DNA from: Acidobacteria bacterium 13_1_20CM_3_53_8
GTDB taxonomy: Bacteria > Acidobacteriota > Blastocatellia > Pyrinomonadales > Pyrinomonadaceae
DNA length: 36,450 nucleotides
Direction of reading: 5' to 3'
Assembly (NCBI GenBank): GCA_001920415.1
Contig: MNJR01000077.1
Coordinates: 1 to 36,450 of the forward strand
Position numbers and translations under genes: made by a program. How positions within the stretch are numbered: position 1 is the stretch's first letter; every line of letters starts with the position of its first letter. The notes under the pieces are model-generated. The model saw only the letters and a program-made list of their open reading frames with translations. It was not told the DNA's origin and did no database searches. This document shows, one piece after another, positions 10,046 through 35,926 of this stretch.

Positions 10046-10093
10046 AGCAATTCAAGGCGCGAGAGGTCTTCTATTTGAAAGGGAGAAACATCA

Positions 10094-11014
10094 ATGCGGA
10101 ATAAACGATTTCTATTCGTTCTGGCGGGAGCGCTCGTGTTCGGGTTGCTCGCGGCGATTTCTGTCAGCCGCTATCTTTCAGGCGCGCAGGCTTATGCCAA
10201 GAGTTTGAACAACGTGGTAGTCGCCAAAGTGGACATTCCGCTTGGCACTAAGATAATTCCAGAGCAAGTCACTGTCGCACAGTTCCCGCGCGAGTCCGTC
10301 CCCGATGGAACTTTTGATGATCCAGGCAAACTGGTCGGTCGCGTCGCTGTGGTCAACATACAGGCGCGCGAGCCTATTACGGATTCGCGTCTAGCCGCAG
10401 AGGGCACAGCCGGAGGACTTTCGGCAGTGATACCTGAAGGCTATCGCGCTATGACCGTGAAGGTTGACGATGTAGTAGGAATATCTGGCTTCATTCAGCC
10501 GGGCACGATGGTTGACATTGTTGTAGTGATTGATCCTGATCCAAATTCAACGAATCAGAATCCCATCTCCAAGATAGTTCTGCAAAACATCAAGGTCCTA
10601 GCCAGCGGCCAAAACATTGACCAGCCGCACAACGAGCGCGAGACCAATAGCGTCAAGGCCGTGACTCTTCAGGTCACGCCGGAGCAGGCCGAAAAGCTTG
10701 CGCTCGCAGCTATAGAAGGAAAACTTCAGCTAGTGATGCGCAACTCCATAGATCAGGACGACGCGCAGACCGTAGGCGTGAACAAGCGCAGCCTTCTGTC
10801 AGGAGAGCACGCTCAACCTGCGCCCGACCCCGGTTCACTACGCAGCGAGCAGCCGAAGCCACAGCAATCCGTTCAGCCTGCGCCGCGCAGAGCGCAGCAG
10901 CATCCCGTGAGCGTGCAGAGCAATACGCCCGCTCAACCTGCGCAGCCACAGCCGCCGCGCGCTTCGGTCGAAATGATCGAGGGCGCGAAGAAACATAACG
11001 TTGATTTTCCGTAA
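10094..11014 (+). CDS. cpaB: Flp pilus assembly protein CpaB/RcpC
   Basis: A 306-residue periplasmic protein anchored by one N-terminal membrane segment (FLFVLAGALVFGLLAAISV). A SAF domain follows at residues ~40-105 (VVVAKVDIPLGTKI then TVAQFPRESVPDGTF), then the CpaB C-terminal domain with GYRAMTVKVDDVVGISGF and PGTMVDIVVV. The last ~70 residues are Gln/Pro-rich and low complexity. CpaB/RcpC works next to the secretin and may contact peptidoglycan or stabilise the outer-membrane channel. GGGAG precedes the ATG. The gene sits immediately before the secretin gene, the standard Tad order. Confidence 0.93.
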   Translation: MRNKRFLFVLAGALVFGLLAAISVSRYLSGAQAYAKSLNNVVVAKVDIPLGTKIIPEQVTVAQFPRESVPDGTFDDPGKLVGRVAVVNIQAREPITDSRLAAEGTAGGLSAVIPEGYRAMTVKVDDVVGISGFIQPGTMVDIVVVIDPDPNSTNQNPISKIVLQNIKVLASGQNIDQPHNERETNSVKAVTLQVTPEQAEKLALAAIEGKLQLVMRNSIDQDDAQTVGVNKRSLLSGEHAQPAPDPGSLRSEQPKPQQSVQPAPRRAQQHPVSVQSNTPAQPAQPQPPRASVEMIEGAKKHNVDFP

Positions 11015-11018
11015 ACCG

Positions 11019-11112
11019 AATTTGCGATTTTCGATTTCGGATTAACGAGCGAACTGAATTTGACGAACAAGCTGTCTTTCAATCGCAAATCGAAAATCTA
11101 AAATCGAAAATC
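11019..11112. repeat. Imperfect AT-rich inverted repeat (GATTTTCGATTT type)
   Basis: GCGATTTTCGATTTCGGATT near 11023 and AATCGCAAATCGAAAATCTA near 11081 are partial reverse complements, flanking a spacer of about 40 bases. It separates the cpaB and secretin genes. It resembles the CAGTTTTCAG repeats in design but has a different word. Confidence 0.55.
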
Positions 11113-11132
11113 AGTATAAGGAGCTACAAGCT

Positions 11133-12734
11133 ATGCAGACCCGTTCAAAGAGTGCGCGCGTATTGAGCCTGTTGTGCGCCGCGTTGCTAATCACAGTCGC
11201 AATCCCCAGCGCTCACGCGCAGGAGACCTCTTATACCGCATCCTTCACGCACAACTCGGAAGCGATTCCGGTCAACGTGCTTGTAGGCCAGTCGCGCGTT
11301 ATTAACTTTGACCGTCCCATAGGGCGCTTCTCGGTCTCGAACCCTGAAATAGCGGAGGCAGTGCTAGTGGCTCCAGATCAGGTGCTCGTCAACGGAAAAG
11401 CTTTCGGGCAGGTGAACTTCATCGCATGGGAGAAGGGCGGAAGCAAGTTTCTAGTCTTCGATGTTTTCGTTCGCGCCAATCTTTCGTTGATTGACTCGCA
11501 GATGCGCGTGCTCTTTCCGAACGACGACATTCGCTTGAACCAGGCGAACGGCTCCGTTGTTATCTCTGGCAGCGTTCGCGACCCGCGCACGGTCAAGCAG
11601 GTTCAGGATGTCATAGAGGCCGCAGGGTTCAAGACTGTGAACATGCTTCAGTCGCCTGTTAGGAACATTGCTCAGGTGCAGTTGCAGGTTCGCTTCGCCG
11701 AAGTGAATCGCAGTCGCATGCGTGAGTTCGGCGCAACCTACACGAGCGTTGGTGGCGGAACGACCGCTTACGCGAATAACGGTGGCGGGCCAGCGACTGC
11801 TTCCAGCATAACCAACGGCGCTATTGAAAGCGTCTTCTCGTCTGCGATGAATCTCTTCGTCTTCAATAACGCCATACATACAGCCGCAGCACTGCAAGCT
11901 CTACGTCAGCAGGGCGCGTTCCGCGAACTGGCCGAGCCTAACCTTGTAGCTATGGACGGGCAGCAGGCCAGCTTTCTGGCGGGCGGCGAGTTTCCCGTGC
12001 CGGTTGTTCAAAATTCCGGTAACCAGATGGCTATAACTGTGGTCTTCAAAGAGTACGGCATACGCTTGAACTTCAAGCCGACGATTATTGATGAAGATCA
12101 CATACGTCTTGAGCTTGAGCCTGAAGTCTCAACGATTGATTTTGCTACGGGCGTGAAGTTCAACGGCTTCCTGATTCCTGCTCTGCGCACGCGTCGCGCG
12201 CATACAGCCGTAGAGTTGCGCGACGGGCAGGCTTTTGCGCTCGCGGGTCTTCTGGACAATAACGAAACTCAGTCGCTCGCAAAGATTCCCGTCATCGGCG
12301 ACATTCCTATACTCGGCAATCTCTTCAAATCGAAATCGTTCCAGCATAACGACACTGAACTGATCTTCTTCTGCACTGTGAATCTAGTGAAGCCTGTGAG
12401 TCCAGACGATCTTCCGCGCACACGCGGTACGGATGGGCTGAGAACTGGTTCTCCGCTTGGAGTCGAGCCGCGCGGCGAAGGCATACAGGGCGAGAGCGGG
12501 CATTCAATCAGCACTAGCACGCCTGCTCCTACGCATACTGCTCCTGCTGCCACACCTGCTGCACAGCCTAAGCCTTCCCAACGACCTGCTCAGCAACAGA
12601 CTAGGCCAACGACTCTGCCTGCTGCGGGCGACGGGACGATATCGCTTCTTCCTCCGAGCGAAGTGAATCGCGCGTGGCCTCATGCCGCAATCATTCAAAC
12701 TCAAGCGATCGTTGACATGCCGCCAGCACCGTGA
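11133..12734 (+). CDS. cpaC: Tad secretin CpaC/RcpA
   Basis: A 533-residue outer-membrane secretin. It has a signal peptide ending AHAQE (about residue 30), then the pilus N-terminal domain (VLVGQSRVINFDRPIGRFSV, SNPEIAEAVLVAPDQVLVNG), a BON-like segment (GSVRDPRTVKQVQDVIEAAG) and the secretin core (NLVAMDGQQASFLAGGEFPV, LEPEVSTIDF, KIPVIGDIPILGNLFKS, TELIFFCTVNLVKP). These regions match type II/III secretin hallmarks. The last ~110 residues are Pro/Thr/Ala/Gln-rich and unusual in length; they may mediate envelope or pilotin contacts. AAGGAG with good spacing precedes the ATG. It forms the pore through which the Flp pilus leaves the cell. Confidence 0.94.
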   Translation: MQTRSKSARVLSLLCAALLITVAIPSAHAQETSYTASFTHNSEAIPVNVLVGQSRVINFDRPIGRFSVSNPEIAEAVLVAPDQVLVNGKAFGQVNFIAWEKGGSKFLVFDVFVRANLSLIDSQMRVLFPNDDIRLNQANGSVVISGSVRDPRTVKQVQDVIEAAGFKTVNMLQSPVRNIAQVQLQVRFAEVNRSRMREFGATYTSVGGGTTAYANNGGGPATASSITNGAIESVFSSAMNLFVFNNAIHTAAALQALRQQGAFRELAEPNLVAMDGQQASFLAGGEFPVPVVQNSGNQMAITVVFKEYGIRLNFKPTIIDEDHIRLELEPEVSTIDFATGVKFNGFLIPALRTRRAHTAVELRDGQAFALAGLLDNNETQSLAKIPVIGDIPILGNLFKSKSFQHNDTELIFFCTVNLVKPVSPDDLPRTRGTDGLRTGSPLGVEPRGEGIQGESGHSISTSTPAPTHTAPAATPAAQPKPSQRPAQQQTRPTTLPAAGDGTISLLPPSEVNRAWPHAAIIQTQAIVDMPPAP

Positions 12735-12746
12735 ATCTTAAGGCGG

Positions 12747-12841
12747 GTCAGTACCGCCTGCGGTAGCGGGCGGGTTGTGTTTGAAATAGCAGGCAGTCAC
12801 GCAGTCACAATTACCCGCCCGCTACCGCAGGCGGTACTGAC
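12747..12841. repeat. GC-rich inverted repeat element, copy 1
   Basis: Perfect 29-bp arms, 12747-12775 and 12813-12841 (GTCAGTACCGCCTGCGGTAG...), around a 37-base centre. The same element, with the same arm core and a partly conserved centre (TTGAAATAGCAGGCA here), occurs at 22174-22277. It lies between the secretin and tadG-like genes. Confidence 0.85.
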
Positions 12842-12878
12842 TTGGTGCTCATTAATGGCGTGAGAGGGGGGACGCGAG

Positions 12879-14000
12879 ATGAATAAAAGAACGGAAAGAT
12901 ATTCGGACAGAAAAGACGAGCGGGGTTCGGTTCTTGCCATCGCAGCCGTAGGAATGCTTGCCCTCCTCCTAGTCGTAGGCCTCACTGTTGACATAAGCCA
13001 TTTCTACCTTGCGAAGAACGAGCTACAGAATGCTGCGGACGCATCGGCGCTTGCAGGGGCATCTGCGCTGAACTCGTCAGCAGCCGGAATCACAGAGGCG
13101 GTCAACCGCGCTGTGAAGGCCATGAACAATTACGAGTTCGGCAAGCAGGGCGTAGCTTTCCCGCGCTCGAACGTTCTGTTCGCAGTCAACCTGGATGGGC
13201 CATACATGAGCGAAGGTTCCGCCACAGCGCAGCCCGCCAACATTCGTTTCGTTAAGGTGACGACGCCGGATTCGCCCGTGGGTGTTTCGTTCGCGCAAAT
13301 GGTTCTGGGAAATAATCGTAATATGGCGGCGACGGCCACTGCGGGTCTTTCAATTCCCATCAACACCTACTGCGATTTCATCCCGCTCTCTGTGATTGAT
13401 TACGACATTCCAATGCGGCCCGGACAGGTCTATACGATTCGCGCGCCTGCATCTGGCGGCCCTTCGCCGGGCGACTACCAGATTCTGGCTGTCGCAGGGC
13501 CGGGCGGTGTTGACGTTGGTTTCGGTCTGGGCGCGGGCGTTGATGCGTGCGCAGAGCCGGGCGCTACCTACACGGTTGACTGCAAGCCCGGACTGACTGC
13601 GGGCAAGGTGCGGACGGGAATCAACGCGCGGTTCGATGATTATCAGGGCAGCCAGCTAGACCCCGCGCGCGAACCGCCCGACACGAATGTTCAGGAAAAC
13701 ATTTCATACGCGCAGTACGTTGCAGGCTCTCCCTTTAAAGCGCCGTCGCATACGGGCATCGCAGGTCGCCGCATCGTACTCATTCCTATTGTGAAGCTGG
13801 CCGAATACGATCAGGGACGCTGCACTGTAAAGTTCGATCGCTTCGGCGCGTTCTTCCTAAAAACCAAAATCGGCGGCGGCAGCGGCGGCGACGTTCAGGC
13901 TGAATACATAGCGGATCGTCTTGCCGTCGGTAAAGGAACTTACGACCCGAACGGGGTGGTTGGCGATCCAGCGCTGGCAGCGCCAGTAATTTACAGGTAA
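12879..14000 (+). CDS. tadG: TadG-like pilus assembly protein
   Basis: A 373-residue protein with the Tad 'TadE/G-like' N-terminus: a basic leader, then ERGSVLAIAAVGMLALLLVVGLTVD (split here as residues ~14-38) and DISHFYLAKNELQNAADASALAGA, the standard pattern of TadG proteins. The first segment resembles a pseudopilin transmembrane helix. The remaining periplasmic part lacks an obvious von Willebrand domain, so this is the shorter TadG type. GGGGGG-rich ribosome-site sequence precedes the ATG at about -10. TadG and the two TadE-like proteins downstream are thought to form a minor-pilin complex needed for pilus assembly. Confidence 0.85.
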   Translation: MNKRTERYSDRKDERGSVLAIAAVGMLALLLVVGLTVDISHFYLAKNELQNAADASALAGASALNSSAAGITEAVNRAVKAMNNYEFGKQGVAFPRSNVLFAVNLDGPYMSEGSATAQPANIRFVKVTTPDSPVGVSFAQMVLGNNRNMAATATAGLSIPINTYCDFIPLSVIDYDIPMRPGQVYTIRAPASGGPSPGDYQILAVAGPGGVDVGFGLGAGVDACAEPGATYTVDCKPGLTAGKVRTGINARFDDYQGSQLDPAREPPDTNVQENISYAQYVAGSPFKAPSHTGIAGRRIVLIPIVKLAEYDQGRCTVKFDRFGAFFLKTKIGGGSGGDVQAEYIADRLAVGKGTYDPNGVVGDPALAAPVIYR

Positions 14001-14012
14001 CGAGTTGAAGCG

Positions 14013-14528
14013 ATGAAAGCGCGCATAAGAAAAATCAGAAGACGTTTGCGCCTGAGCCGCTTCAGGCGCAGCGAGCGAGGCACGCAGCTTGTGGAACTGG
14101 CGATTGTCGTTCCAATCCTCCTGATACTATTTGCGGGCGCGGCAGAATTCGGTCGCTACTTCTACGAGTATACGACGCTTGCCAAAGGCGCTCGCGTCGG
14201 CGCTCGATACTTGAGTACAGCAGGAATGAAAGTTGATCCCGCACAGCAAGTGCCTGTAGATGGCGCGGCTATGAATCTGGTCGTTTACGGAAACACAAGC
14301 GGAACAGGCTCGCCCATCTTGAGCGGGCTGACGACCAGCAATGTTCAAATTTCTCGCGCTGGTGGAGTGCCGGGCGTTCCGCAGACCATAACGGTGCAGA
14401 TTATTAATTACAAACATCAGCCCGTCTTCAACATAGGGGCGCTGCTGAAGATGCCCTCGCTTTCGCTCAACATTGATGTGAAGCCGAGCGTCACTATGCG
14501 CAACCTGCTGACGACACCTGTTATTTAA
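14013..14528 (+). CDS. tadE: TadE-like pseudopilin
   Basis: A 171-residue protein with a strongly basic N-terminus (residues 1-27) followed by ERGTQLVELAIVVPILLILF, a prepilin-like motif with the conserved Glu (LVELA) at the head of the hydrophobic helix, then AAEFGRYFYEYTTLAKGAR, which is typical of TadE. It is expected to be cleaved by the TadV peptidase and to act as a minor pilin. The gap to the upstream gene is 12 bases. The downstream gene is a paralogue beginning 11 bases after this stop. Confidence 0.9.
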   Translation: MKARIRKIRRRLRLSRFRRSERGTQLVELAIVVPILLILFAGAAEFGRYFYEYTTLAKGARVGARYLSTAGMKVDPAQQVPVDGAAMNLVVYGNTSGTGSPILSGLTTSNVQISRAGGVPGVPQTITVQIINYKHQPVFNIGALLKMPSLSLNIDVKPSVTMRNLLTTPVI

Positions 14529-14539
14529 GAGAAGCGAAA

Positions 14540-15016
14540 ATGGCGAGCAGAAAATTTTCAATAAGGGATGAGCGCGGCACGACGCTTCTGGAGTTCGCCA
14601 TAGGCGCGACAGTTTTTCTGACGGCCATGTTCGCCGTGCTCGAATTCGGTCGCGCCCTATGGATTCACAACGCGCTTGCAGACGCGGCGCGCAGAGGCGC
14701 TCGCTACGCCACATTACAGTGCAGCCCGTCAGACGCTGGCTGCCCGAACTCAGCGACTTCAGTCCAACGGGTCAAGAACGTAGTTGTTTACGGCGACCCG
14801 AACGGCGGCACCAAGCCACTGGTTGATAACCTGACGACTGCGAACGTAGATGTCACATACGCGGGCTTCGGATTGGATACGGGCACGGTCTCCGTGAGCA
14901 TAACGGGTTACCAGTTCCAGTTCGTTCTTCCGCTTCTTGTAAAGACTATAACGATGCCCGGCTACACGACGACGCTCCCGGCAGAGAACGCGGGCTATTT
15001 GCCGCCGAACATGTAA
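14540..15016 (+). CDS. tadF: TadE/TadF-like pseudopilin
   Basis: A 158-residue paralogue of the preceding gene: basic leader, RDERGTTLLEFAIGATVFLTA with the conserved Glu, then VLEFGRALWIHNALADAARR, as in TadE/TadF. It contains two cysteines close together (LQCSPSDAGCP) that may form a disulfide in the periplasm. AGAGAAG precedes the ATG. It is probably a second minor pilin. The name tadF reflects position; TadE and TadF are hard to separate by sequence alone. Confidence 0.87.
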   Translation: MASRKFSIRDERGTTLLEFAIGATVFLTAMFAVLEFGRALWIHNALADAARRGARYATLQCSPSDAGCPNSATSVQRVKNVVVYGDPNGGTKPLVDNLTTANVDVTYAGFGLDTGTVSVSITGYQFQFVLPLLVKTITMPGYTTTLPAENAGYLPPNM

Positions 15017-15019
15017 AGG

Positions 15020-15092
15020 CAGTTTTCAGTTTTTAGTTTTCAGTTTTAAGAAACGACCAAGGCTGAAAACTAAAAACTGAAAACTGAAAACT
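15020..15092. repeat. AT-rich inverted repeat (CAGTTTTCAG family)
   Basis: Arms of CAGTTTTCAGTTTTTAG words and their complement around AAGAAACGACCAAGG. It fills the gap between the tadF-like and tadZ genes and ends six bases before the tadZ ATG, leaving no room for a normal ribosome site. Confidence 0.8.
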
Positions 15093-15098
15093 AAACCA

Positions 15099-16328
15099 AT
15101 GACACAGCCACTGACATTAGTAGTTCTGAGCGCGGGGCTTGAGAGTTTTAGGGAGATTCGCGCAGCGCTGGCCGAGGATGGGCGCGGTCGTCTCCTTGCG
15201 GGCGGCGACGATGCGGAACAAGTTTACGAGCAGCTTCTTCACCTGAAACCTTCTGCGGCAATCATCACGCTCGGCGCGAACGCCGAACCGACGCTGAAGT
15301 TGATCGAGCGCATCAGCGTTGAGTGTCCGAAGACCTCTGTAATCTCTGCTGCGCGCGACGCATCGCCAGACCTCATACTGCGCAGCATGCGCGCGGGCGC
15401 TAGAGAATTCTTGCGGCTGCCGATCAATTCAGACGAATTGAAAACGGTCTTGGACCGCACCACAGAATTCAGCGCTGTGCAAACGGAAGAGCCGCGAAAA
15501 AAGGGACGAATGATTGCAGTGTTTTCGAGCAAAGGCGGCTGCGGCACTTCGTTCGTCGCAACGAACATTGCTGCGGCTATGAATCAGCCTACAGTGCTCG
15601 TTGATCTCAATTTGCAGGCTGGCGACCTTCCGCTATTCCTCGGAGTGGAAGCGAAATATTCAATCGCAGACCTTGTGGAAAATCGCGCGCGTCTGGACGA
15701 CACGCTGCTGAAGAGTTACATCACCCCACACTCGTCCAAGCTCGCGCTGATGGCCGCGCCGCGCGAGGCAGATGCTGCGGACGAGATAGAGCCTGAGCAC
15801 GTATTTGAAGCGCTCGAAAAATTGCGCGAGCACTTCGAGTACGTCGTGCTAGACCCGCAGCACACGTTTGATGCCATCACGCTCGCTGCTCTGGATCAGG
15901 CCGACGACATCGTGCTGGTTCTCACGCTGGACATCCCCGCTATTCGCAGCGCACAGCGCGCATTGGAAATTTTCGACCGGCTGGGCTACCAGCGACGCAA
16001 AGTTCGTATAGTCGTCAATCGCTGGAGCAAGCAGATTGATCTTGATTTGAGACAGGTGGAAAAATTTTTGGGTGAGCCGGTCGTCGGATTCATACAAAGC
16101 GACTACCAGCCCGTAGTCACTTCCATCAACCTGGGTCAACCGCTCGTTGAATCCGAACCGTCATCACGCATAGCCATCGAAATCAAACGCATCGTCAGCA
16201 CGATTGTAGGCAACAAGATCGCGGTTAATGAAGACACAACGCAGCGGCGAAGAATCTGGGACTCATTCTTCCGGCGCGGCGCTTCGCAGTCGAGCGTGGA
16301 TTTCAGCACGACGCTGGGAAAAGTTTAA
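15099..16328 (+). CDS. cpaE: TadZ/CpaE pilus-localising ATPase
   Basis: A 409-residue protein: an atypical receiver-like domain (residues ~1-125, with SMRAGAREFLRLPINSDEL near its end), then a MinD/ParA-type ATPase. The Walker A region is SKGGCGTSFVATNIAAAM. It keeps the KGG of the deviant motif but has Thr where the usual second Lys would be, which is frequent in TadZ/CpaE proteins. Later segments VLVDLNLQAGDLPLFLG and DIVLVLTLDIPAIRSAQRAL match the family. TadZ positions the Tad apparatus in the cell and recruits the TadA ATPase encoded next. There is no clear ribosome site: the ATG follows the repeat at 15020-15092. Confidence 0.92.
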   Translation: MTQPLTLVVLSAGLESFREIRAALAEDGRGRLLAGGDDAEQVYEQLLHLKPSAAIITLGANAEPTLKLIERISVECPKTSVISAARDASPDLILRSMRAGAREFLRLPINSDELKTVLDRTTEFSAVQTEEPRKKGRMIAVFSSKGGCGTSFVATNIAAAMNQPTVLVDLNLQAGDLPLFLGVEAKYSIADLVENRARLDDTLLKSYITPHSSKLALMAAPREADAADEIEPEHVFEALEKLREHFEYVVLDPQHTFDAITLAALDQADDIVLVLTLDIPAIRSAQRALEIFDRLGYQRRKVRIVVNRWSKQIDLDLRQVEKFLGEPVVGFIQSDYQPVVTSINLGQPLVESEPSSRIAIEIKRIVSTIVGNKIAVNEDTTQRRRIWDSFFRRGASQSSVDFSTTLGKV

Positions 16329-16367
16329 GTACGTCTTTGGCAGAATAAATTTTCACGGGACACAGAC

Positions 16368-17699
16368 ATGGCACTTCGAGAAAGATTAGTTAGAGAGACG
16401 TTCCCGAACGGCGCGGGTCAAAGCGGCGCATCGGAAGGTCAACATAACTTTCAGGAGATGAAGTCTAGACTTCACCGCGCGCTCATCAACCGTATGGATT
16501 TGACCAAGCTAGGCGAGCTTGCGCCCGATCAACTCAATGCGGAAGTTTCGCGCCTGGCGGAAGGCGTGCTCGCGGCGGAAGCAACGCCGCTTTCGATAGC
16601 GGAACGCGACCGCCTTGTACGCGACGTTCAGCATGAGCTTTTCGGATTAGGCCCGCTTGAGCCGCTTCTGGCAGACACGACCATCTCGGACATACTCGTC
16701 AATCGCCACGACAAAATCTACATTGAGCGACGCGGCAAGCTGGAAATCACAAACGTCGCATTCAAAGATGACGAGCACCTTATGCGCGTCATCGAGCGAA
16801 TAGTTTCATCCGTAGGCCGTCGCATTGACGAATCCTCTCCGATGGTTGACGCGCGATTGCAGGACGGCTCGCGCGTGAACGCCATCATCCCGCCGCTTTC
16901 GCTCGATGGCCCTGTGCTCTCTATTCGTCGTTTCGGCGCAGAGCCTCTGCGTATGAACGCGTTGATTGAGAATAAAGCTTTGACGAAAGAGATAGCAGAT
17001 ATGCTTGAGATGTGTGTGCGCGCACGCCTCAACGTGCTTATCTCAGGCGGCACCGGCGCTGGCAAGACAACGCTTCTTAACGCGCTCTCAGCTTCGATTC
17101 CAGAAACGGAGCGCATCGTAACGATTGAAGATTCAGCAGAGTTGCAGTTGCAGCAGCCGCACGTGGTTCGCCTTGAGACGCGACCGCCCAACATAGAGGG
17201 GCGCGGCGAAGTGACGCAGCGCGATTTAGTGCGAAACGCGCTTCGCATGCGACCCGACCGCATAGTCATCGGCGAGGTTCGCGGCGGCGAAGCCATAGAC
17301 ATGCTTCAGGCCATGAACACAGGCCACGACGGAAGCTTAACGACGATTCACGCGAACACGCCGCGCGACTCGCTTGCGCGTCTTGAGACGATGATTCAGA
17401 TGACCGGCATGCGACTCTCTGATAGAGCCATGCGTCAACAAGTTGCGTCAGCGCTCGATCTGGTAGTTCAAGTCGCGCGCCTATCAGACGGCACGCGCCG
17501 CCTGACATCAATCTCTGAAATAACCGGCATGGAAGGCGAGACGATAACCATGCAGGAAATCTTCCAGTTTGAACGCACTACGGTTGACCGCGACGGTAAA
17601 GTCGTAGGCCGCTTCCGCGCTACAGGCATACGCCCACGCTTCGCCGAAAAACTGAAGGCCAACGGCATGATTCTGCCGCGCATATTCTTTGAAGAATGA
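16368..17699 (+). CDS. cpaF: TadA/CpaF secretion ATPase
   Basis: A 443-residue hexameric type II/IV secretion ATPase that powers Flp pilus extension and probably retraction. Visible motifs are [20 protein letters not shown] (N-terminal domain), Walker [17 protein letters not shown] near residue 230, the Asp box [16 protein letters not shown], Walker [18 protein letters not shown], and the His box [15 protein letters not shown]. Length is typical of CpaF. The gene lies 39 bases after cpaE. Downstream are the two inner-membrane platform proteins, TadB and TadC, with which it forms the motor. Confidence 0.96.
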
Positions 17700-17705
17700 G
17701 AAGAG

Positions 17706-17779
17706 CAGTTTTCAGTTTTTAGTTTTCAGTTTTAAGAAATTTTCTGGGCTGAAAACTAAAAACTGAAAACTAAAAACTG
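17706..17779. repeat. AT-rich inverted repeat (CAGTTTTCAG family)
   Basis: CAGTTTTCAGTTTTTAG arm, a central AAGAAATTTTCTGGG, and the complementary arm. It occupies the gap between tadA and tadB and ends three bases before the tadB ATG, replacing the usual ribosome site. Confidence 0.8.
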
Positions 17780-17782
17780 TTT

Positions 17783-18745
17783 ATGATTCCATTTCTGGTA
17801 TTCATCTTCTGCCTGTTTCTTTCGCTCGGCGGCTACCTGATAGCGACGCGCGGATCTGATGCGAAGCGCCGCCGCCTTCAGCAACGCCTTTCGGAAGCTC
17901 TGCTGCATTCGGCTAATACGGAAGACGTTGAAGTTGTGCTCGCGCGTCAGGAGTTGATGAGCGAAATCCCCTGGCTCAATCGCACGCTCGTGCACATACA
18001 GAGCGCAGTGCAGTTGAAGCGCGTGCTGGATCAGGCGGATTTGCACATAACGGTTACGCGCCTATTTATGTTCTCGTTGATGGCAGGCTTGCTTGCAGGT
18101 CTTGCGGCTTCAATGTTGACGGTTTCGCTTCTCATCATCATCGTCAGTGGTCTGGTCGGCGCGGCAATTCCTTTCGTGCACGTATGGTGGACTAGGAAGA
18201 GAAGGTTCGACAACTTCCTTGAGCATCTGCCGGACGCGCTCGAATTGATGAGCCGCGCGCTATCGGCAGGACATGCGTTCTCGGAAGCGATGCACATGGT
18301 TTCGGTCGAGATGCCGGAGCCGATTGCTACAGAGTTTCGCAAAACTTATGAGGAACAGAACTTCGGACTCTCCTTGAAATTAGCGCTTGAAAATTTGACG
18401 CAACGCATACCGCTTCTAGACCTGCGGCTCTGCGTTACGGCTGTTCTCATACAGCGCGACACGGGCGGCAATCTCGCTGAAATTCTTGAAAAGGTCGCTT
18501 ACACGATACGCGAGCGCTTCCGAATCCTTGGCGATTTGAAAACGCTGACGACAAGCTCGCGCATGTCAGCATGGCTGCTCTGCGGTCTTCCGATAGGCGT
18601 TGCTTTCGCCGTCACCGCGCTCAATCCAGAATACATGAGCATTCTGTGGCGCGACCCGCGCGGCCATATTCTTATCGCAGTCGCACTCATGATGCAGATG
18701 ACAGGAATGCTGATCGTGAGGAAAATTTTGAAAATCAAAATTTAA
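17783..18745 (+). CDS. tadB: TadB inner-membrane platform protein
   Basis: A 320-residue T2SSF-type membrane protein. It has one N-terminal membrane segment (MIPFLVFIFCLFLSLGGYLI), a cytoplasmic stretch, two central hydrophobic segments (about residues 95-135), the cytoplasmic F domain with FDNFLEHLPDALELMSRALS, GHAFSEAMHMVS and DLRLCVTAVLIQRDTGGNLA, and hydrophobic C-terminal helices. The DALELM...L..G....A pattern is diagnostic. It pairs with TadC to form the inner-membrane platform turned by TadA. The ATG at 17783 immediately follows an inverted repeat. Confidence 0.94.
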   Translation: MIPFLVFIFCLFLSLGGYLIATRGSDAKRRRLQQRLSEALLHSANTEDVEVVLARQELMSEIPWLNRTLVHIQSAVQLKRVLDQADLHITVTRLFMFSLMAGLLAGLAASMLTVSLLIIIVSGLVGAAIPFVHVWWTRKRRFDNFLEHLPDALELMSRALSAGHAFSEAMHMVSVEMPEPIATEFRKTYEEQNFGLSLKLALENLTQRIPLLDLRLCVTAVLIQRDTGGNLAEILEKVAYTIRERFRILGDLKTLTTSSRMSAWLLCGLPIGVAFAVTALNPEYMSILWRDPRGHILIAVALMMQMTGMLIVRKILKIKI

Positions 18746-18835
18746 GTTTTCAGTTTTTAGTTTTCAGTTTTCAGAAAAAGCAAATGCTTTCTGATTACAT
18801 ATCAACTGAAAACTAAAAACTGAAAACTGAAAACT
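18745..18835. repeat. AT-rich inverted repeat (CAGTTTTCAG family)
   Basis: Arms of AGTTTTCAGTTTTTAGTTTT and complement around a ~30-base centre. It starts at the last base of the tadB stop codon and ends six bases before the tadC ATG at 18842, so it fills the whole spacer. Confidence 0.8.
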
Positions 18836-18841
18836 GAGCTT

Positions 18842-19777
18842 ATGCTTCTAATAATCACACTTTCGACTTTCATCTGCTTCTCGCTCGGCGTGATGGGCGT
18901 TTACTGGCTGGTGTTCCGCCCGCAGAGCGCAGCTACAGAGCGTTTGCGTAGGCTTGGCGAACGAAATGCTGGCTCGACCGCAACGGCAGGAATAATCATT
19001 GCTGAAGATAGTCCTGTCGCTGAGTTTGCCGAAAAGATTGCTGCGCCACTTAATCGTCTTGCGCCGCCGTCGGCTGCTGAAGCCAGGAAATTGCAGAAGC
19101 AGTTGATGCAGGCAGGCTTCCGCTCGCCGAACGCGCCTGTGATTTACCGCGCAATTCAGGTCGGGACGCTCATTGGTTTGCCGGGCGCGGTCGCGCTCCT
19201 GTGCGCTTTGCTCGCTCGCCCTTTTGGTGACGCGCTTCTTTTAATCCTCTTCGCGTTCGTAGTGGGATTCTTCGTGCCACGCTATTTTTTGAAGCGAACG
19301 ATTCGATACAGGCAGCAGCGTATACGCTGGGGATTGGCGGATGCGCTAGACCTTATGGTCGTTTCGATTGAAGCAGGGCTGGGGCTGAACGCTGCCATGC
19401 TGCGCGTGAGCGACGAGTTGAAGGACGTTCATCCAGATATAAGCGAAGAGTTCGAGCTTGCGAACCTTGAAATTCGCGTGGGTCGAGACCGCGAAGAGGC
19501 GTTGCGTAATCTGGCGGAGCGCACAGGGGTTGATGATCTTTGCAGTCTGGTCGCAATGCTTATTCAGGCGGATCGCTTCGGCACTTCAATCGCACGCGCG
19601 GTGCGAATCTTCTCCGACAGCCTGCGCACCAAACGTCGCCAGCGCGCAGAACAGGCTGCGCAGAAAGCTGCTGTAAAACTTCTGTTTCCTCTGGCGTGCT
19701 TCCTATTTCCAACTCTGTTCATAGCTATCTTAGGCCCTGCGGCACTCACCCTGATTGACACACTCGGCAACATGTAA
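18842..19777 (+). CDS. tadC: TadC inner-membrane platform protein
   Basis: A 311-residue T2SSF-type membrane protein paralogous to TadB. It begins with a membrane segment (LLIITLSTFICFSLGVMGVY). The F domain contains RWGLADALDLMVVSIEAGLG, LNAAMLRVSDELKDVHPDIS, RNLAERTGVDDLCSLVAMLI and QADRFGTSIARAVRIFSDSL, followed by KRRQRAEQAAQKAAVKLLFP and a C-terminal hydrophobic hairpin. This R..RAEE.A.KA.VK..FPL pattern is typical of TadC. It partners TadB in the pilus motor base. Its stop is directly followed by the ribosome site of tadD. Confidence 0.94.
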   Translation: MLLIITLSTFICFSLGVMGVYWLVFRPQSAATERLRRLGERNAGSTATAGIIIAEDSPVAEFAEKIAAPLNRLAPPSAAEARKLQKQLMQAGFRSPNAPVIYRAIQVGTLIGLPGAVALLCALLARPFGDALLLILFAFVVGFFVPRYFLKRTIRYRQQRIRWGLADALDLMVVSIEAGLGLNAAMLRVSDELKDVHPDISEEFELANLEIRVGRDREEALRNLAERTGVDDLCSLVAMLIQADRFGTSIARAVRIFSDSLRTKRRQRAEQAAQKAAVKLLFPLACFLFPTLFIAILGPAALTLIDTLGNM

Positions 19778-19792
19778 AGGAGAGTGGCAAGA

Positions 19793-20758
19793 ATGCGTAA
19801 GAGAACAATCCTGGCGATCATCATAGCCTTCGTGCTCTGCTTCGGCGCAACCGCCTTCTGGAGCGCAGAGACTACGGGGCGCGATGGCGACCCTGATGCA
19901 AACATCATCGAATCCAACGGCGCGCAGGTTGGCAAATCAAGTCACGGAGGCAACAAAATCGTGCGCGTTGTGACCGCACCGTTTCGCGCAATCGGAAGAT
20001 TGTTCGGACGTGGCGGCGACAATAACAGAGTTCAGCGAATGACGGAGCAGGACGCTGCAAGGTTTGAAAGCGCAGGAGCGCAGCGCGTGACAGACGCTCG
20101 TTCGCCAGCGCCTGCAAAACCTTCGGCAGAAGGAACCGCACGCGATCATCTGGCTACTGGGCGCGCACTGCTTCAAACCGGAAGGACGAACGAAGCAATT
20201 GCCGAACTATCGCTGGCTGCTTCGCTCGACCCACACTTGAGCGAGGCGAACAATCTTTTGGGCGTCGCTTACGACAGGAAAGGAATGGGCGAGCGAGCGC
20301 GCGATGCGTATGAGCACGCGATGCATGAATCGCCCGAAGACGCACAGACGCTCAACAACCTGGGCTTCTCGCTCTATCAGAACGGGAACTATCGCGCGGC
20401 GGTTGACCGTTTGAAGCGCGCCGCCCGGCTCGCGCCAACCGATCAGCGAATTCTGAACAACCTTGCGCTGGCTCAATGTCGCCTGGGCAAATTCGACGAT
20501 GCGTTCAAAAACTTCTCGCGCGCGGGCGGCGAGTTGACAGGAAGACTTAACACCGCCGCGATTCTAGAAAGGATGGGGCGCGACGAAGATGCCATTAAAT
20601 ATTACGAGGCCGCTCTTCGACTCGAACCGAACTCGTCAATCTCGCTGCGTCGCCTTGCCGAACTCTACAAGCGAGTCGGTCGCACAGAAGATGCCGAGTC
20701 AACGCGTCGTCAGCTAGCAAGACTTGCGAACGACATGACTGTGGCGCAAAGCAATTAA
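19793..20758 (+). CDS. tadD: TadD-like TPR protein
   Basis: A 321-residue protein with an N-terminal membrane anchor or signal (RTILAIIIAFVLCFGATAFW), a basic linker and at least four tetratricopeptide repeats from residue ~120 (RDHLATGRALLQTGRTNEAI, NNLLGVAYDRKGMGERARDA, NNLGFSLYQNGNYRAAVDRL, AAILERMGRDEDAIKYYEAA). The ATG at 19793 is chosen over a GTG at 19784 because AAGGAG ends only one base before the GTG but ten before the ATG. TadD proteins act as pilotin or assembly factors for the secretin. It is the last recognised core tad gene. Confidence 0.85.
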   Translation: MRKRTILAIIIAFVLCFGATAFWSAETTGRDGDPDANIIESNGAQVGKSSHGGNKIVRVVTAPFRAIGRLFGRGGDNNRVQRMTEQDAARFESAGAQRVTDARSPAPAKPSAEGTARDHLATGRALLQTGRTNEAIAELSLAASLDPHLSEANNLLGVAYDRKGMGERARDAYEHAMHESPEDAQTLNNLGFSLYQNGNYRAAVDRLKRAARLAPTDQRILNNLALAQCRLGKFDDAFKNFSRAGGELTGRLNTAAILERMGRDEDAIKYYEAALRLEPNSSISLRRLAELYKRVGRTEDAESTRRQLARLANDMTVAQSN

Positions 20759-30918: not shown

Positions 30919-30997
<79 letters not shown>

Positions 30998-31016
30998 TTA
31001 ATTAAATCAACCATTT

Positions 31017-31307: not shown

Positions 31308-32786
31308 CTACTCGCGCTTCTTGATGATGCTTCGCAAGCGTCTCTTTGTAGGCGTCCTCTTGTACAAGAGTCGCTTGTGCCTTGTGGTCAATAGGTGGCT
31401 GAGGCTTTGATGACTCAAGCCAAGCAGCTTAGCGGCGCGCGTCACGCTTCCCTTGCATTCCTCTAGAGCCTGTTCGATGAACCTTGCTTCTAACTCATAC
31501 ACTGCGCCGTGCAGTGTGAAGTTTCTGTCGAACAGGTTAATACCCGACAGCCTCTTAATCACTATGCGAGCGCACATCCTGAGTCGTGAGATGTCTTCGG
31601 CGTCCTGTGTGTCTTTGAGCATCTCATCGGCGCGGCGATATATTTCACATAGCTCCGTTTCAGCCAGTCGCCTAGCCCCGTGCTCTTCGATCATCGTTAA
31701 TGCAGCCAGCCCGGCGTTAGTGAGAGCGCCGGAGTCTTGAGCTACCCTCATGGCTTGCTGAAGTACGTTGATGGAGCTTTCATGGACTCCGAGCCTAGCC
31801 CATACGACGCCTTGAACAATCATCGCATCAGCAAGTAAAGCAAGCTCGCCGCCCTTCTCGAAGGTCTTAATCACGTTGGTGATGATGCGGTTTGCTTCAC
31901 TGTACTTCTTCTCAGCTACGAGCACACGCGCTCGCGTCTCATCAACCTGTGCCAAGTTGCCCGTGTCCTTAAGGGTGGTAAAGATTAACTGAGCACGATC
32001 TAGGTGTTCGTGCGCTTCCCTATAGCGCCCTAGCTTATAGAGCAGCATGGTGAGATTGTTCAGGTTAAGCGCACAGTACCTTTCATGCTTCGCCTGTTCA
32101 TAATGATAAATCGCGGCAGTGAATTCTATAATCGCTCTGTCCGCGTAGTCGGCTCGTCCTTCACCTGTAGCAAGCCTTCTGAGGATTAAGCCTTTTTGAC
32201 CGTGCCATCTTCCCTTGAGAGCATCGCTCGCAGAGTCAAAGACCGATTCTGCCTCTTTAAGAATGCTTAGAGCTTCATAATATCTGTTCTCGCTTATCTC
32301 AACCAGCGTGCGCCTAATCAAGATTTTAGCCTTTAACTCTGTATCAGCGTCCGTTAGAGGCTTCAGCGCTTCCCGCAATACTAAGCGAGCTTCGTCATAC
32401 GCGCCGAGACGCCAGTAGCAGATGCCGAGTTCGTACTGCGCCTCAGACGCCTTTTCATATCGTCCTTGAGATTGGAACTTGCGGAGCGCCTCAAAGAGTA
32501 GGTCTTTAGCTTGTTCCTGCGCGCCTGAGACATTCCGCACGCTGCCGAGCCAGCCCGTGAGCACGCCACATTGAAGCAGAACTTCTGCTGCTATCTCAGG
32601 TTTTAGCTTTTTAATTTCGGGTCTTTGTCCGATGCCTTGCCATAGATCACCTAAAGCCTCGCATGCAGCCTCATATTGTCCTGCCTGAATTAATTCAGCC
32701 GCGATGCGGCAACGCAGTAAGATGCGCTCGTTTGTGGTAAGGGAAGGGCTATCTAGTTCCTTCAGGTGTTTATCTGTTAAAGTCAT
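31308..32786 (-). CDS. TPR-repeat regulator with C-terminal Fis-type HTH
   Basis: A 492-residue soluble protein. At least five tetratricopeptide-like repeats fill residues ~80-370 (e.g. EAQYELGICYWRLGAYDEAR, NNLTMLLYKLGRYREAHEHL, ARVLVAEKKYSEANRIITNV, VQGVVWARLGVHESSINVLQ). The end is a Fis-type helix-turn-helix, ELEARFIEQALEECKGSVTR, then AAKLLGLSHQSLSHLL, with a very basic tail. It looks like a DNA-binding regulator that senses a ligand through its TPR superhelix. A divergent gene 117 bases away encodes a small secreted peptide, a plausible ligand precursor. The domain order is the reverse of known RRNPP peptide receptors. The ATG has no strong ribosome site. Confidence 0.8.
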   Translation of the reverse strand: MTLTDKHLKELDSPSLTTNERILLRCRIAAELIQAGQYEAACEALGDLWQGIGQRPEIKKLKPEIAAEVLLQCGVLTGWLGSVRNVSGAQEQAKDLLFEALRKFQSQGRYEKASEAQYELGICYWRLGAYDEARLVLREALKPLTDADTELKAKILIRRTLVEISENRYYEALSILKEAESVFDSASDALKGRWHGQKGLILRRLATGEGRADYADRAIIEFTAAIYHYEQAKHERYCALNLNNLTMLLYKLGRYREAHEHLDRAQLIFTTLKDTGNLAQVDETRARVLVAEKKYSEANRIITNVIKTFEKGGELALLADAMIVQGVVWARLGVHESSINVLQQAMRVAQDSGALTNAGLAALTMIEEHGARRLAETELCEIYRRADEMLKDTQDAEDISRLRMCARIVIKRLSGINLFDRNFTLHGAVYELEARFIEQALEECKGSVTRAAKLLGLSHQSLSHLLTTRHKRLLYKRTPTKRRLRSIIKKRE

Positions 32787-32808
32787 GTGAGGACAGCCTT
32801 TCTCTGCC

Positions 32809-32863
32809 TATGCCACTCTCTGGCATACACAACAACACCGCCGTAACCAAGCAGGTTCGGCGG
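32809..32863. promoter_or_regulatory. Two inverted repeats in the regulator/peptide divergent region
   Basis: TATGCCA-CTCTC-TGGCATA (32809-32827) is a perfect dyad with 7-bp arms. CCGCCGTAACC and GGTTCGGCGG (32838-32863) pair with one bulge. Both lie in the 117-base gap between the divergent TPR-HTH regulator and the secreted peptide gene and are candidate operator sites for the regulator. Confidence 0.4.
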
Positions 32864-32903
32864 CAACTTTGGTGAACTCTCATAAAGCGAAAGGTGTAAG
32901 GAG

Positions 32904-33119
32904 ATGAGTAAAACTATCCGAGCCTCTGTGCTGATTCTCCTACTAGCTTGCTCTGCTTACGCTGGCGATATGCAAAACGGCGTAACTGACTCGCCGCCAC
33001 CTCCACCGCCAAGCGCCGTTCAGGAACAGCCTACGGGCGGCGAAATGCAAAATGGAGTAGCGGACAGCCTCATGGAGACTGCGCTAACTCTGCTCGAAAG
33101 CGTGCTCGCGCTGCCGTAG
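32904..33119 (+). CDS. Small secreted peptide with repeated G-[DE]-MQNGV motif
   Basis: A 71-residue precursor. A signal peptide (SKTIRASVLILLLACSAYAG) with a signal-peptidase site after AYA would release a ~51-residue product. The product begins GDMQNGVTDS, runs through six prolines, then has a second copy GEMQNGVADS and a hydrophobic, helical C-terminus (LMETALTLLESVLALP). The near-perfect decapeptide duplication suggests the motif is the functional unit, possibly cut out as a signal. GGAG lies five bases before the ATG. It is divergent from the TPR-HTH regulator, the expected partner. No known family comes to mind; its function is inferred from context only. Confidence 0.75.
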   Translation: MSKTIRASVLILLLACSAYAGDMQNGVTDSPPPPPPSAVQEQPTGGEMQNGVADSLMETALTLLESVLALP

Positions 33120-33591: not shown

Positions 33592-34536
33592 TATGCGAAT
33601 CAGTAGTAGAAAACGAGCAGGAAGAAAGCAACTGCAAGTTTTCCCCAACAGTGGATCATTAGCGGATCAGTTGAGCGCACTTTGCTTGCTCTTTGAATCC
33701 CTGTTTTCTCCTGTATCCAGTTGAAGAGACTTTCAATGGGTTGACGGACGGAGCGCACCAGCCGATTGTAATAGTTTTCAGTGCCGGTCAGTTCGCCACC
33801 CTTCGGTTTTTTGCACGGCGCAATGAGCCGCGTCTGTTGTTCTTTCAAATGGTTGATGATTTCTGGAGTCGGATAAGCTAAATCGCCAAATAGTTCGGTG
33901 GTTGGTAATTCCGGCTGCTGTTCGATGAAGGCTTTCGAGTCGTGATGCGAGGCGGCACACAGCCACACTTGAGAGGGCAGCGGTAAGCGTCCCATCCGTC
34001 GTTGTGCAATGCAGTGCAGCCGCACGCCATGAAAGCGAGTTTTCTTAGCTGCACAGAAACCAATATCAGCAATCTCGCGCCCGACACGTGCACCGTAAGA
34101 GTGGCCGTGGCTTGCGAGCATCACGGGCAATGAGTCAACCAGATGGTCAAACTCTGGCGTGTATTGCGCGGCCAAAGCGCCAGACAAGAGTGCGCCGAAG
34201 GTCTGAAAAGTCGGTTCTAGGCGGAGAGAGACGCAGAACGAATGTTTGATAACTGGGCAAGCGTGGAAACCACGCAAGCCAATACTTGAGAATCAATCGA
34301 TGCATCTTCTTTTTCTCGAAGCAGCCCTCTAAGTGAGCAAAGAACCAGATGGTAATGAGTTCTTGGTCAGTGAAATCAGGGTTCCGGTTATTGCTCAAGC
34401 GTTGATAACAAGTCTTGGACGAAGTATCGTAGGTTTGGCAGACAAACAGGTAGATTTCAATCAGTAGGTTTTCCATGGTAAGAAAATTCTACTGATTCTA
34501 CCGTTTGTCTGTCTTTCTCAACTACTGATTCGCATA
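33592..34536 (-). mobile_element. Insertion sequence with frameshifted DDE transposase (IS982-like?)
   Basis: A 945-bp element bounded by terminal inverted repeats: TATGCGAATCAGTAGT at 33592-33607 and its complement ending at 34536, with similarity continuing a few bases inward. A transposase in two frames fills the interior on the minus strand. I see no clear target duplication. The IS982 assignment is a tentative judgement from transposase layout. Confidence 0.75.
33600..34476 (-). pseudogene. DDE transposase, broken by a +1 frameshift
   Basis: The N-terminal 85 or so codons run from 34476 (MENLLIEIYLFVCQTYDTSS ... LPSYQTFVLRL). The rest continues in the next frame from about 34220 (RLEPTFQTFGALLSG onward) to the TGA at 33600. 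The break falls in a TCTCTCT run near 34220-34230. The catalytic triad is visible in the second frame: Asp in LVDSLPVM, Asp in LFGDLAYP, Glu in PIESLFNW. The substitution of frame makes an inactive gene likely, though some IS families make transposase by frameshifting. The stop lies inside the left terminal repeat. Confidence 0.75.
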
Positions 34537-34543
34537 AAGGTGA

Positions 34544-35602
34544 ATTCAACTTGTAAGTGCAACTTTTGAACTTGGTCAGAGAAGGGCAAGCTGCGATAGC
34601 ATCAGATGCTCTTCCAACCACCAAGTTAAGAGTAGCACTGATGACATATCGACAGCTTACCCAAGAACAAAGATACCAGATTTACGCACTAATGAAAGCC
34701 AACTGGTCACAACTTGAGATTGCTCTGGAAGTTGGCGTTCATCCCTCGACCATCTCGCGCGAACTCTCTCGCAACCGGGGAGGGCGTGGCTATCGCCCCA
34801 AGCAGGCACAGGAGAAAGCTCAAACGCGCAAAGAGCAACATGTCAGCAGGCGCATCAGCCCTTCGACTTGGAGAATGATTGAAAGTTACATACGCCGGGA
34901 CTGGAGTCCCGAACAAGTCTCAGGCTGGCTTTCAAAGCGCCATCTGCGTGTCAGCCATGAGCACATCTATCAATACATCTACGCTGACAAACAGAGGGGT
35001 GGCAACCTTCATCAGCACTTACGCTGCCGCAAACAGCGGCGCAAGCGCTATGGCTCTTATGAGCGCCGAGGCCAGATAAAGGGTCGTCGCAGCATAAGTT
35101 CCCGCCCTAAGGTTGTCGCACAGAAGCGGCGCATCGGCGATTGGGAAGCCGACACTATCATCGGACAGAATCAGAAAGGAGCCATCGTCTCTGTGGTCGA
35201 ACGCAAATCGAAGCTGTGCTTACTCAAAAGGGTCGCGCGTCACACTTCGGAAGCGGTCGAGCAGGCGCTTTCGGAGTTATTAAAGCCTTTCCAGCAGAGA
35301 TGTCATACTATCACCTCGGACAACGGCAAGGAGTTTGCCAACCATCAGGCCATTGCCTCGAGCTTGCAGGCTGACTTTTACTTTGCTCACCCCTATGCCA
35401 GTTGGGAGCGTGGTCTGAATGAAAATACCAATGGGCTTGTGCGGCAATACTTCCCGAAGAAAAGCACCTTTTCAAAGATCAAGGACTCGGATGTGCAGCA
35501 AGTAATGGATCGCTTAAACAATCGTCCTCGCAAGCGGCTGGGCTACAAGACACCGAATCAGGTATTCTTCAAACAGAAACCGATTGCACTTACAACTTGA
35601 AT
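34544..35602 (+). mobile_element. IS30 family insertion sequence
   Basis: A ~1.06-kb element with imperfect terminal repeats: ATTCAACTTGTAAGTGCAAC at 34544-34563 and, inverted, CGATTGCACTTACAACTTGAAT at 35581-35602 (about 18 of 20 matching). It contains one complete transposase gene. Its left end is only seven bases from the right end of the neighbouring insertion sequence, and its right end abuts a broken ion-channel gene. Confidence 0.85.
34641..35600 (+). CDS. IS30 family transposase
   Basis: A 319-residue DDE transposase. The N-terminal HTH region is MTYRQLTQEQRYQIYALMKA with SQLEIALEVGVHPSTISREL, diagnostic for IS30. The catalytic core has Asp in RIGDWEADTIIG, Asp in HTITSDNGKEFANH and Glu in RGLNENTNGLVRQYFPKKS. 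The ATG at 34641 (MTYRQL) is chosen because the 28 codons upstream, open to a weak start at 34557, overlap the terminal repeat and do not resemble the family. It is complete and may be active. The stop lies inside the right terminal repeat. Confidence 0.93.
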   Translation: MTYRQLTQEQRYQIYALMKANWSQLEIALEVGVHPSTISRELSRNRGGRGYRPKQAQEKAQTRKEQHVSRRISPSTWRMIESYIRRDWSPEQVSGWLSKRHLRVSHEHIYQYIYADKQRGGNLHQHLRCRKQRRKRYGSYERRGQIKGRRSISSRPKVVAQKRRIGDWEADTIIGQNQKGAIVSVVERKSKLCLLKRVARHTSEAVEQALSELLKPFQQRCHTITSDNGKEFANHQAIASSLQADFYFAHPYASWERGLNENTNGLVRQYFPKKSTFSKIKDSDVQQVMDRLNNRPRKRLGYKTPNQVFFKQKPIALTT

Positions 35603-35926
35603 CCACGACTTATAAAACGAGTGGTGAAGTAACGAAAGCGGAAAACCTCGGAGATGACATTGACGCAGAACTCTACCAATTTGAAGACCCGGCAGGTCGT
35701 AAGCGATCTGTTGAGGTTTATTTTTACGATACAAATCCACAAACGCAAGGACTATCTTTATTTTGCTATGTGCACGATTACGACTACGGGTTACGGCGAC
35801 ATCAAGCCGATGACGCCGTACACAAAATTTTTATGCACGCTGGCAAACATGACAGAGTTCTTCTTCATCGTGGTCTTCTTCAACACATTGCTATCACTGA
35901 GACGGCGAAAAGAGGAGACCACCTGA
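35603..35926 (+). pseudogene. Truncated, frameshifted ion-channel gene
   Basis: The last ~60 codons read DYLYFAMCTITTTGYGDIKP and on through a hydrophobic helix (FLCTLANMTEFFFIVVFFNT), which is the pore loop with the TTTGYGD selectivity filter and the inner helix of a two-helix K+ channel. The stretch before it continues plausibly in another frame (GEVTKAENLGDDIDAELYQF, EDPAGRKRSVEVYFYDTN), so a one-base frameshift occurs near 35745. The 5' part, with start codon and first membrane helix, is missing at the IS30 boundary. It is a fossil of a channel gene cut by the insertion. Confidence 0.7.

Follow-up and report, generated by a model that had tools for sequence, protein, structure and literature searches.

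Two genes that diverge from a short shared intergenic region in Acidobacteria bacterium 13_1_20CM_3_53_8 raise the question of whether a TPR regulator and a small secreted peptide, encoded back to back, form a peptide-signalling system in a Gram-negative bacterium. The pair lies in the 36,450-nucleotide stretch of contig MNJR01000077.1 that was analysed as a whole, hereafter the window. A sequence-only reading had taken it for an analogue of the RRNPP receptors with reversed domain order, the repeated motif of the peptide being the signal that the TPR domain recognizes. In what follows, the source genome (6.1 Mb) is labelled G000, the contig of the window C139, and the loci collected for comparison carry L numbers.

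The regulator, the propeptide and the region between them

The putative receptor gene (31308-32786, minus strand) encodes 492 residues, with a TPR superhelix at about 18-414 and a C-terminal HTH_8 domain at 425-476, i.e., a Fis-type helix-turn-helix supported by both Pfam and the AF2 model (codons 31359-31514, minus strand). Both the open reading frame and the Pfam matches (TPR_12, TPR_2 and TPR_19, and HTH_8 over residues 431-462 with 36 bits against a cut-off of 22) confirm the TPR protein ending in a Fis-type HTH that had been described from the letters alone. Pfam detects no AAA+ sigma-54 activation domain in this protein, and the protein is devoid of signal peptide. The AF2 model (pLDDT 89.6, pTM 0.78) retrieves eukaryotic LGN TPRs as top Foldseek matches, and the first bacterial protein is RapF in complex with PhrF. 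With VIA-align, the model superimposes on RapF with PhrF (Z 29.0, rmsd 5.1, 360 residues), Rap with CSF (Z 28.6, rmsd 4.4, 349 residues), NprR (Z 27.7, rmsd 4.8, 349 residues), AimR (Z 21.6, rmsd 4.7, 313 residues) and domain III of MalT (Z 25.8, rmsd 4.2, 353 residues). The RRNPP-like superhelix alignment spans residues of about 15-395 and is not exclusive to RRNPP proteins, as the unrelated TPR proteins APPBP2 (Z 29.8) and APC5 (Z 27.7) are equally close. TPR folds being generic, the predicted fold fits a peptide receptor without proving one.

Across a gap of 117 bp (32787-32903), the divergent gene (32904-33119, plus strand) encodes a propeptide of 71 residues, supported by its sequence and by a profile of 114 relatives; precursor, gap and signal peptide are all as first reported. 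The signal peptide MSKTIRASVLILLLACSAYA (32904-32963, plus strand) is predicted by a simple rule to be cut at AYA|GDM, directly before a first motif copy, GDMQNGVTDS (residues 21-30; 32964-32993, plus strand). Six prolines follow (residues 31-36; 32994-33011, plus strand), a Pro-rich spacer that recurs in relatives, then a second copy, GEMQNGVADS (residues 46-55; 33039-33068, plus strand), which also differs from the first by synonymous changes at Asn, Gly and Ser codons. Copies and prolines thus stand as described. The remainder is a hydrophobic or amphipathic C-terminal segment, LMETALTLLESVLALP (33069-33116, plus strand), whose character is kept in relatives. The window peptide has no convincing match among the models of Pfam, NCBIfam, PHROG and PADLOC.

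The intergenic region harbours two dyads for which no strand is assigned: an operator-like TATGCCA-N5-TGGCATA (TATGCCActctcTGGCATA; 32809-32827), centred about 31.5 bp upstream of the regulator start, and CCGCCG-N14-CGGCGG (32838-32863), centred at about 64 bp, i.e., some 32.5 bp or three helical turns further. The dyads noticed at first sight are real: over 114 such gene pairs, hereafter cassettes, 133 are found against 49 expected from shuffles (about 2.7-fold commoner). Their centres are fixed relative to the regulator start, at 31.5 bp (z 21.5) and about 64-66 bp, with a further centre at 94.5 bp in cassettes whose regulator carries a REC domain, and the half-sites vary from cassette to cassette (TATGCCA in the window; CTTGCAA, GCGCATGACC or CCGCCA in others). 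Constant position together with changing but complementary sequence is the pattern expected of operators bound by a dimeric HTH. The dyads are accordingly supported as putative operators of the regulator, in the absence of binding data, and a hairpin in the leader RNA is still possible.

As regards the surroundings, the peptide gene is closely followed by a DDE transposase broken into two frames (33600-34476, minus strand), then by an IS30-like transposase (34557-35600, plus strand) and by a fragment containing TTTGYGD, the signature of K+ channel selectivity filters (35654-35926, plus strand), which resembles a truncated ion channel next to a transposase. At a greater distance, a cluster resembling Tad/Flp pilus assembly genes (9401-20758) encompasses a prepilin peptidase, CpaB, a secretin, a TadE-like protein, CpaE, CpaF and TadB/C, all named from translations only. 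A tRNA-Pro(CGG) gene (30923-30998, plus strand) is found near the cassette. The idea of a tRNA-linked mobile island was rejected, since a tRNA occurs in only 5 of 60 cassette flanks, and no phage or plasmid match was obtained for the cassettes.

Pairing of regulators and peptides within one family

The source genome encodes three further intact regulators (60, 45 and 43% identical to that of the window), and small ORFs next to these three were also recovered, independently, by a search with the peptide. All of these ORFs are divergent, and in each the signal peptide precedes a short motif that occurs twice in two peptides (GEIQNP/GEILNP and GQIDIP/GEIEIP) and once in the other (GEMGTP). One of these paralogues has a REC domain added at its C-terminus; in another, an AAA+ domain separates TPR and HTH. 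There is also one decayed regulator fragment (L005:1531-2340, on contig C78 of G000), with a stop codon and no peptide, which looks like a dead cassette.

Beyond this genome, relatives occur in 58 of the 119 genomes of the order, with up to nine per genome, and the matches obtained by searching the class (162 genomes) and the phylum (396 genomes) are confined to the same family; the named ones are Acidobacteriota MAGs, many of them labelled Pyrinomonadaceae or Blastocatellia. Among 125 distinct regulator copies sampled from Pyrinomonadaceae, an iterated peptide profile locates a divergent peptide gene beside 114, at 74-281 bp, and in a distant clade recovered by profile search a peptide accompanies 24 of 28 regulators (motif GDMGNGGKTC and C-terminus DYLKSIFG, for example). 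Homologous regulators without any such gene nearby would have refuted the sequence-only reading; these counts do not refute it. The profile matched 117 times in the divergent upstream position and never on the same strand, either upstream or downstream, and the two opposite-strand matches downstream are the peptides of tandem neighbouring cassettes. By architecture, a peptide is present for 46 of 52 TPR-HTH, 34 of 36 TPR-HTH-REC and 20 of 22 TPR-AAA-HTH regulators, the remaining regulators of the sample being fragments or cut.

No peptide gene was seen for seven regulators whose upstream sequence is long enough (L065, L075, L087, L149, L179, L099 and L103); several come from the genomes of one genus, and they are candidate orphan receptors. 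Peptides of the family without a nearby regulator (L227 in the source genome, L228, L237 and L238) are possible orphan signals; neither the GDIASPGF.. peptide of L227:4009-4215 (contig C9 of G000, about 110108-110287) nor the GDVQAPAL..GDVSTPGITGEIGTPG.. peptide of L238:4063-4329 lies within about 4 kb of any regulator. At L231:4373-5357, L232:4029-4481, L259:168-1342, L265 and L267, two or three related peptides form an array next to a single regulator. In the AAA+ paralogues L004, L037, L044, L138, L156, L158 and L163, the readable sigma-54 loop is altered, with GSFAGA, GSFTGA or GAFRGA in place of GAFTGA. A sigma-54 promoter for the AAA+ class was considered and dropped, as no cassette intergenic region contains a strict consensus match.

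Propeptides range from 50 to 108 residues across cassettes. The motif first proposed, [DE]-M-x-N-G-V, holds for the window peptide and proved too narrow for the family, which over 101 registered peptides reads roughly G-x-[I/M]-x-[T/S/N]-[P/G]. It starts at the AxA cleavage site in 91 of these 101 peptides and is present in two to four copies in 58 (registration and cleavage follow simple rules, and 2 or 3 of the 101 are misregistered). When the first eight mature residues were compared with the later stretch of the same peptide, the match was better than with other peptides at p<0.05 in 47 of 110 cases, including the window peptide (p=0.009), and 28 of 110 were beaten by no other peptide. Over 53 copy pairs, pS reaches 0.63, near saturation, against a pN of 0.11, which is biased downwards by the choice of pairs on amino-acid similarity; the high pS indicates that the copies are old. 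Copies are therefore alike inside a peptide and different between paralogues, as expected if both copies meet one partner.

Variable short cores repeated behind a leader, within mature parts that are short and acidic, could also call to mind a RiPP or bacteriocin precursor flanked by its pathway-specific regulator. We give this possibility hardly any credit, since genes for modification, immunity or dedicated transport are not conserved in the flanks, an ordinary Sec signal peptide serves as leader and no RiPP family matches the peptides. Indeed, no third gene is conserved in the cassette flanks beyond vertical synteny, as expected for a stand-alone pair.

Covariation between the peptide motif and the TPR domain

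What would such a partner be? In a scan of TPR columns against motif position 2, column 203 stands out with a z of 9.5, the next column reaching 5.6, and no other TPR column tested has a charge correlation as extreme as its -0.80 (next, -0.50). Cross-classification of basic residues at 203 with acidic residues at motif position 2 gives 55/5/3/38 (Fisher p=9e-19), a p-value that is post hoc because the column was picked by the scan. In detail, R203 pairs with E (27) or D (12), and K203 with N or with D, which accounts for all 16 of its acidic cases (E in none). W or Y is the usual partner of A/I/D203, I or V that of T/M/V/L/N203, and E203 goes with H/T/Q/N or non-acidic motifs. In TPR proteins generally, positions 2, 5, 9, 12 and 13 of helix A line the ligand groove. 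Residue 203, an arginine in the window regulator (codon 32178-32180, minus strand), is position 12 of helix A of TPR5 in the predicted structure, which we take to be a canonical ligand-contact position. Weaker covariation is seen at 196 and 164, also ligand positions, and at 125 and 158; with these columns, the motif could extend from TPR5 to TPR3. A general enrichment is not significant: only 5 of the top 20 covarying columns fall at TPR ligand positions (p=0.06), and 203 alone is strong. Likewise, the overall correlation of motif and TPR distances is about zero, the signal residing at specific columns. It is also tempting to see in Asn243-Asn244 (codons 32055-32060, minus strand; TPR6 helix A), retained even in the distant clade, a candidate clamp of the peptide backbone, an inference without binding data.

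Since the two genes are linked and have been duplicated together, and since our tests were run on related sequences, the covariation might be a mere by-product of shared ancestry and the pairing a matter of co-inheritance. Four observations make this very improbable. One column stands far above all others on the same tree. Pagel's dependent model is preferred to the independent one (LRT 65.9, p=2e-13) over about 18-19 state changes, on a tree built without column 203. When peptides are swapped within genomes, the observed agreement of 78 out of 84 compares with 64.8+-2.8, a value of 78 is not reached in any of 20,000 shuffles, and among 92 columns 203 comes first (z 4.6, next 2.0). Finally, the same rule holds in the distant clade, which was not used for its discovery (16/1/0/7, p=2e-5) and which is the cleaner, out-of-sample test.

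Most motif copies conform to the charge rule (43 of 49 first copies and 48 of 64 later ones); in L134 and L143 the first copy violates it and the later copies obey, and in some peptides it is the later copies that break it. Taken together, the covariation of 203 with motif position 2, the swap test and the distant clade imply that the TPR domain very probably recognizes its own peptide. The earlier suggestion that the repeated motif is the signal and the TPR domain its reader thus gains support at a TPR ligand position, still without binding data. A hydrophobic C-terminus has a precedent as signal in SHP and cCF10. This option was set aside without being excluded, as covariation and repeats favour the motif. 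In the cassette peptides, the covarying motif starts right at the cleavage site and its later copies are internal; the C-terminus is the hydrophobic segment.

One may still argue that the peptide acts in the envelope, in adhesion or as an antimicrobial, and that the TPR regulator merely controls it in response to another cue, the motif not being a ligand. A signal peptide, a Pro-rich spacer and a conserved amphipathic C-terminus would suit a surface or membrane-active peptide, and no processing enzyme is encoded nearby. Yet, without contact, one would not expect a charge-complementary covariation with a single TPR ligand position that persists inside genomes and in the out-of-sample clade, and we regard this explanation as improbable.

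A proposed signalling cassette and its relation to known systems

The reading we favour, and think likely without being certain of it, is a self-contained peptide-signalling cassette based on export, re-import, TPR reception and control of the phased dyads by the HTH. Judging from sequence features only, Sec would export the propeptide, and signal peptidase would cleave it directly ahead of the first copy of G-x-[IM]-x-x-[PG]. Further trimming is inferred to release one or more of the copies as short peptides, which might re-enter the cytoplasm by Opp-type importers; the source genome encodes SBP and ATPase genes of this type (four SBP_bac_5 and three oligo_HPY matches). The TPR superhelix of the divergent regulator would then bind the motif, with residue 203 reading its position 2, as the covariation supports. 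Binding would alter the occupancy of the phased dyads by the Fis-type HTH, an inferred effect on supported operators, and the occupancy may in turn set the expression of both cassette genes and of unidentified target genes. The different motif-receptor codes of paralogous pairs in one genome would make them insulated channels. Release, re-import and regulation by the peptide remain inferred, no experiment having addressed secretion, processing, import, binding or regulation. The outer membrane hinders use between cells, and the signal could act only in the periplasm or in the same cell.

The main rival, which we consider unlikely and which none of our computations rules out, dispenses with re-import: the regulator would bind the motif of the unexported precursor in the cytoplasm and so report slow Sec export or overproduction. 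Covariation needs contact only, the regulator has no signal peptide of its own, cis-linked divergent genes suit feedback, and import is hindered by the outer membrane. A sensor of secretion flux alone leaves unexplained, however, the several matching motif copies and the diversified, insulated codes of up to nine paralogues per genome, and the motif adjoins the cleavage site in 91 of 101 peptides, as if an N-terminus were to be created. Returning to the signalling cassette, the pairing, the covariation, the within-genome specificity and the positioned dyads support the original idea of a reversed-architecture, Gram-negative RRNPP analogue.

More than 100 matched regulator-peptide pairs in one soil Acidobacteriota family suggest that peptide quorum sensing, known from Gram-positive bacteria, has a Gram-negative counterpart not described so far. 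No earlier description of the cassette was found in the literature searched, most subscription papers and all preprints being outside its scope. Bacillota are known to receive exported peptides inside the cell. In other well-studied phyla signals are typically small molecules (RRNPP_detector paper, PMC10075063). A receptor-peptide family in soil Acidobacteriota would extend such reception to organisms with an outer membrane; the rule linking residue 203 to motif position 2 offers a concrete specificity code, and the paralogue sets ready-made orthogonal channels.

How does the cassette compare with known systems? The C-terminal HTH_8 is common to the window regulator and to NtrC-type enhancer-binding proteins and other Fis-type regulators; an AAA+ domain between TPR and HTH exists only in some cassette paralogues and not in the window regulator. 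MalT and AfsR/SARP likewise join a TPR sensor to a DNA-binding domain. They use other DNA-binding domains, a STAND ATPase and small-molecule or kinase input, and differ from the cassette in having no adjacent secreted peptide family. The RRNPPA systems (Rap/Phr, NprR/NprX, PlcR/PapR, PrgX, Rgg/SHP and AimR/AimP) come closer, with a TPR receptor encoded beside a small Sec propeptide and a TPR fold that aligns with the window regulator over its full length. Their propeptides of 50-120 residues are exported by Sec and may hold one to four slightly varied pheromone copies, their receptors are specific for their own peptide, and internal pheromones also work, besides those at the usual C-terminal position (PMC11343458); multiple motif copies and receptor-specific peptide codes are likewise seen or suggested in the cassette. 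RRNPPA pheromones, 5-10 residues long when mature, are re-imported through Opp and bound directly in the TPR groove of a receptor whose HTH or effector domain is N-terminal and whose TPR domain is C-terminal. In contrast, the cassette regulator carries its TPR region N-terminally and its Fis-type HTH C-terminally, the reverse order, with AAA+ and REC variants; the motif lies at the N-terminus of the mature part; and the cassette belongs to Acidobacteriota, RRNPPA to Bacillota and their phages. An N-terminal TPR region was a reason for discarding clusters in the RRNPP_detector survey (PMC10075063), where the architecture of the cassette would have been dropped, and surveys of this design miss such systems. 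Failing on domain order and on phylum, the cassette is not a member of RRNPPA; it probably works like RRNPPA signalling. On balance, we incline to see in it an independently evolved, lineage-expanded Gram-negative pheromone system with up to nine insulated pairs per genome, in which one TPR residue reads residue 2 of the short repeated motif and a common sensor is joined to plain HTH, AAA+-HTH or HTH-REC output modules.
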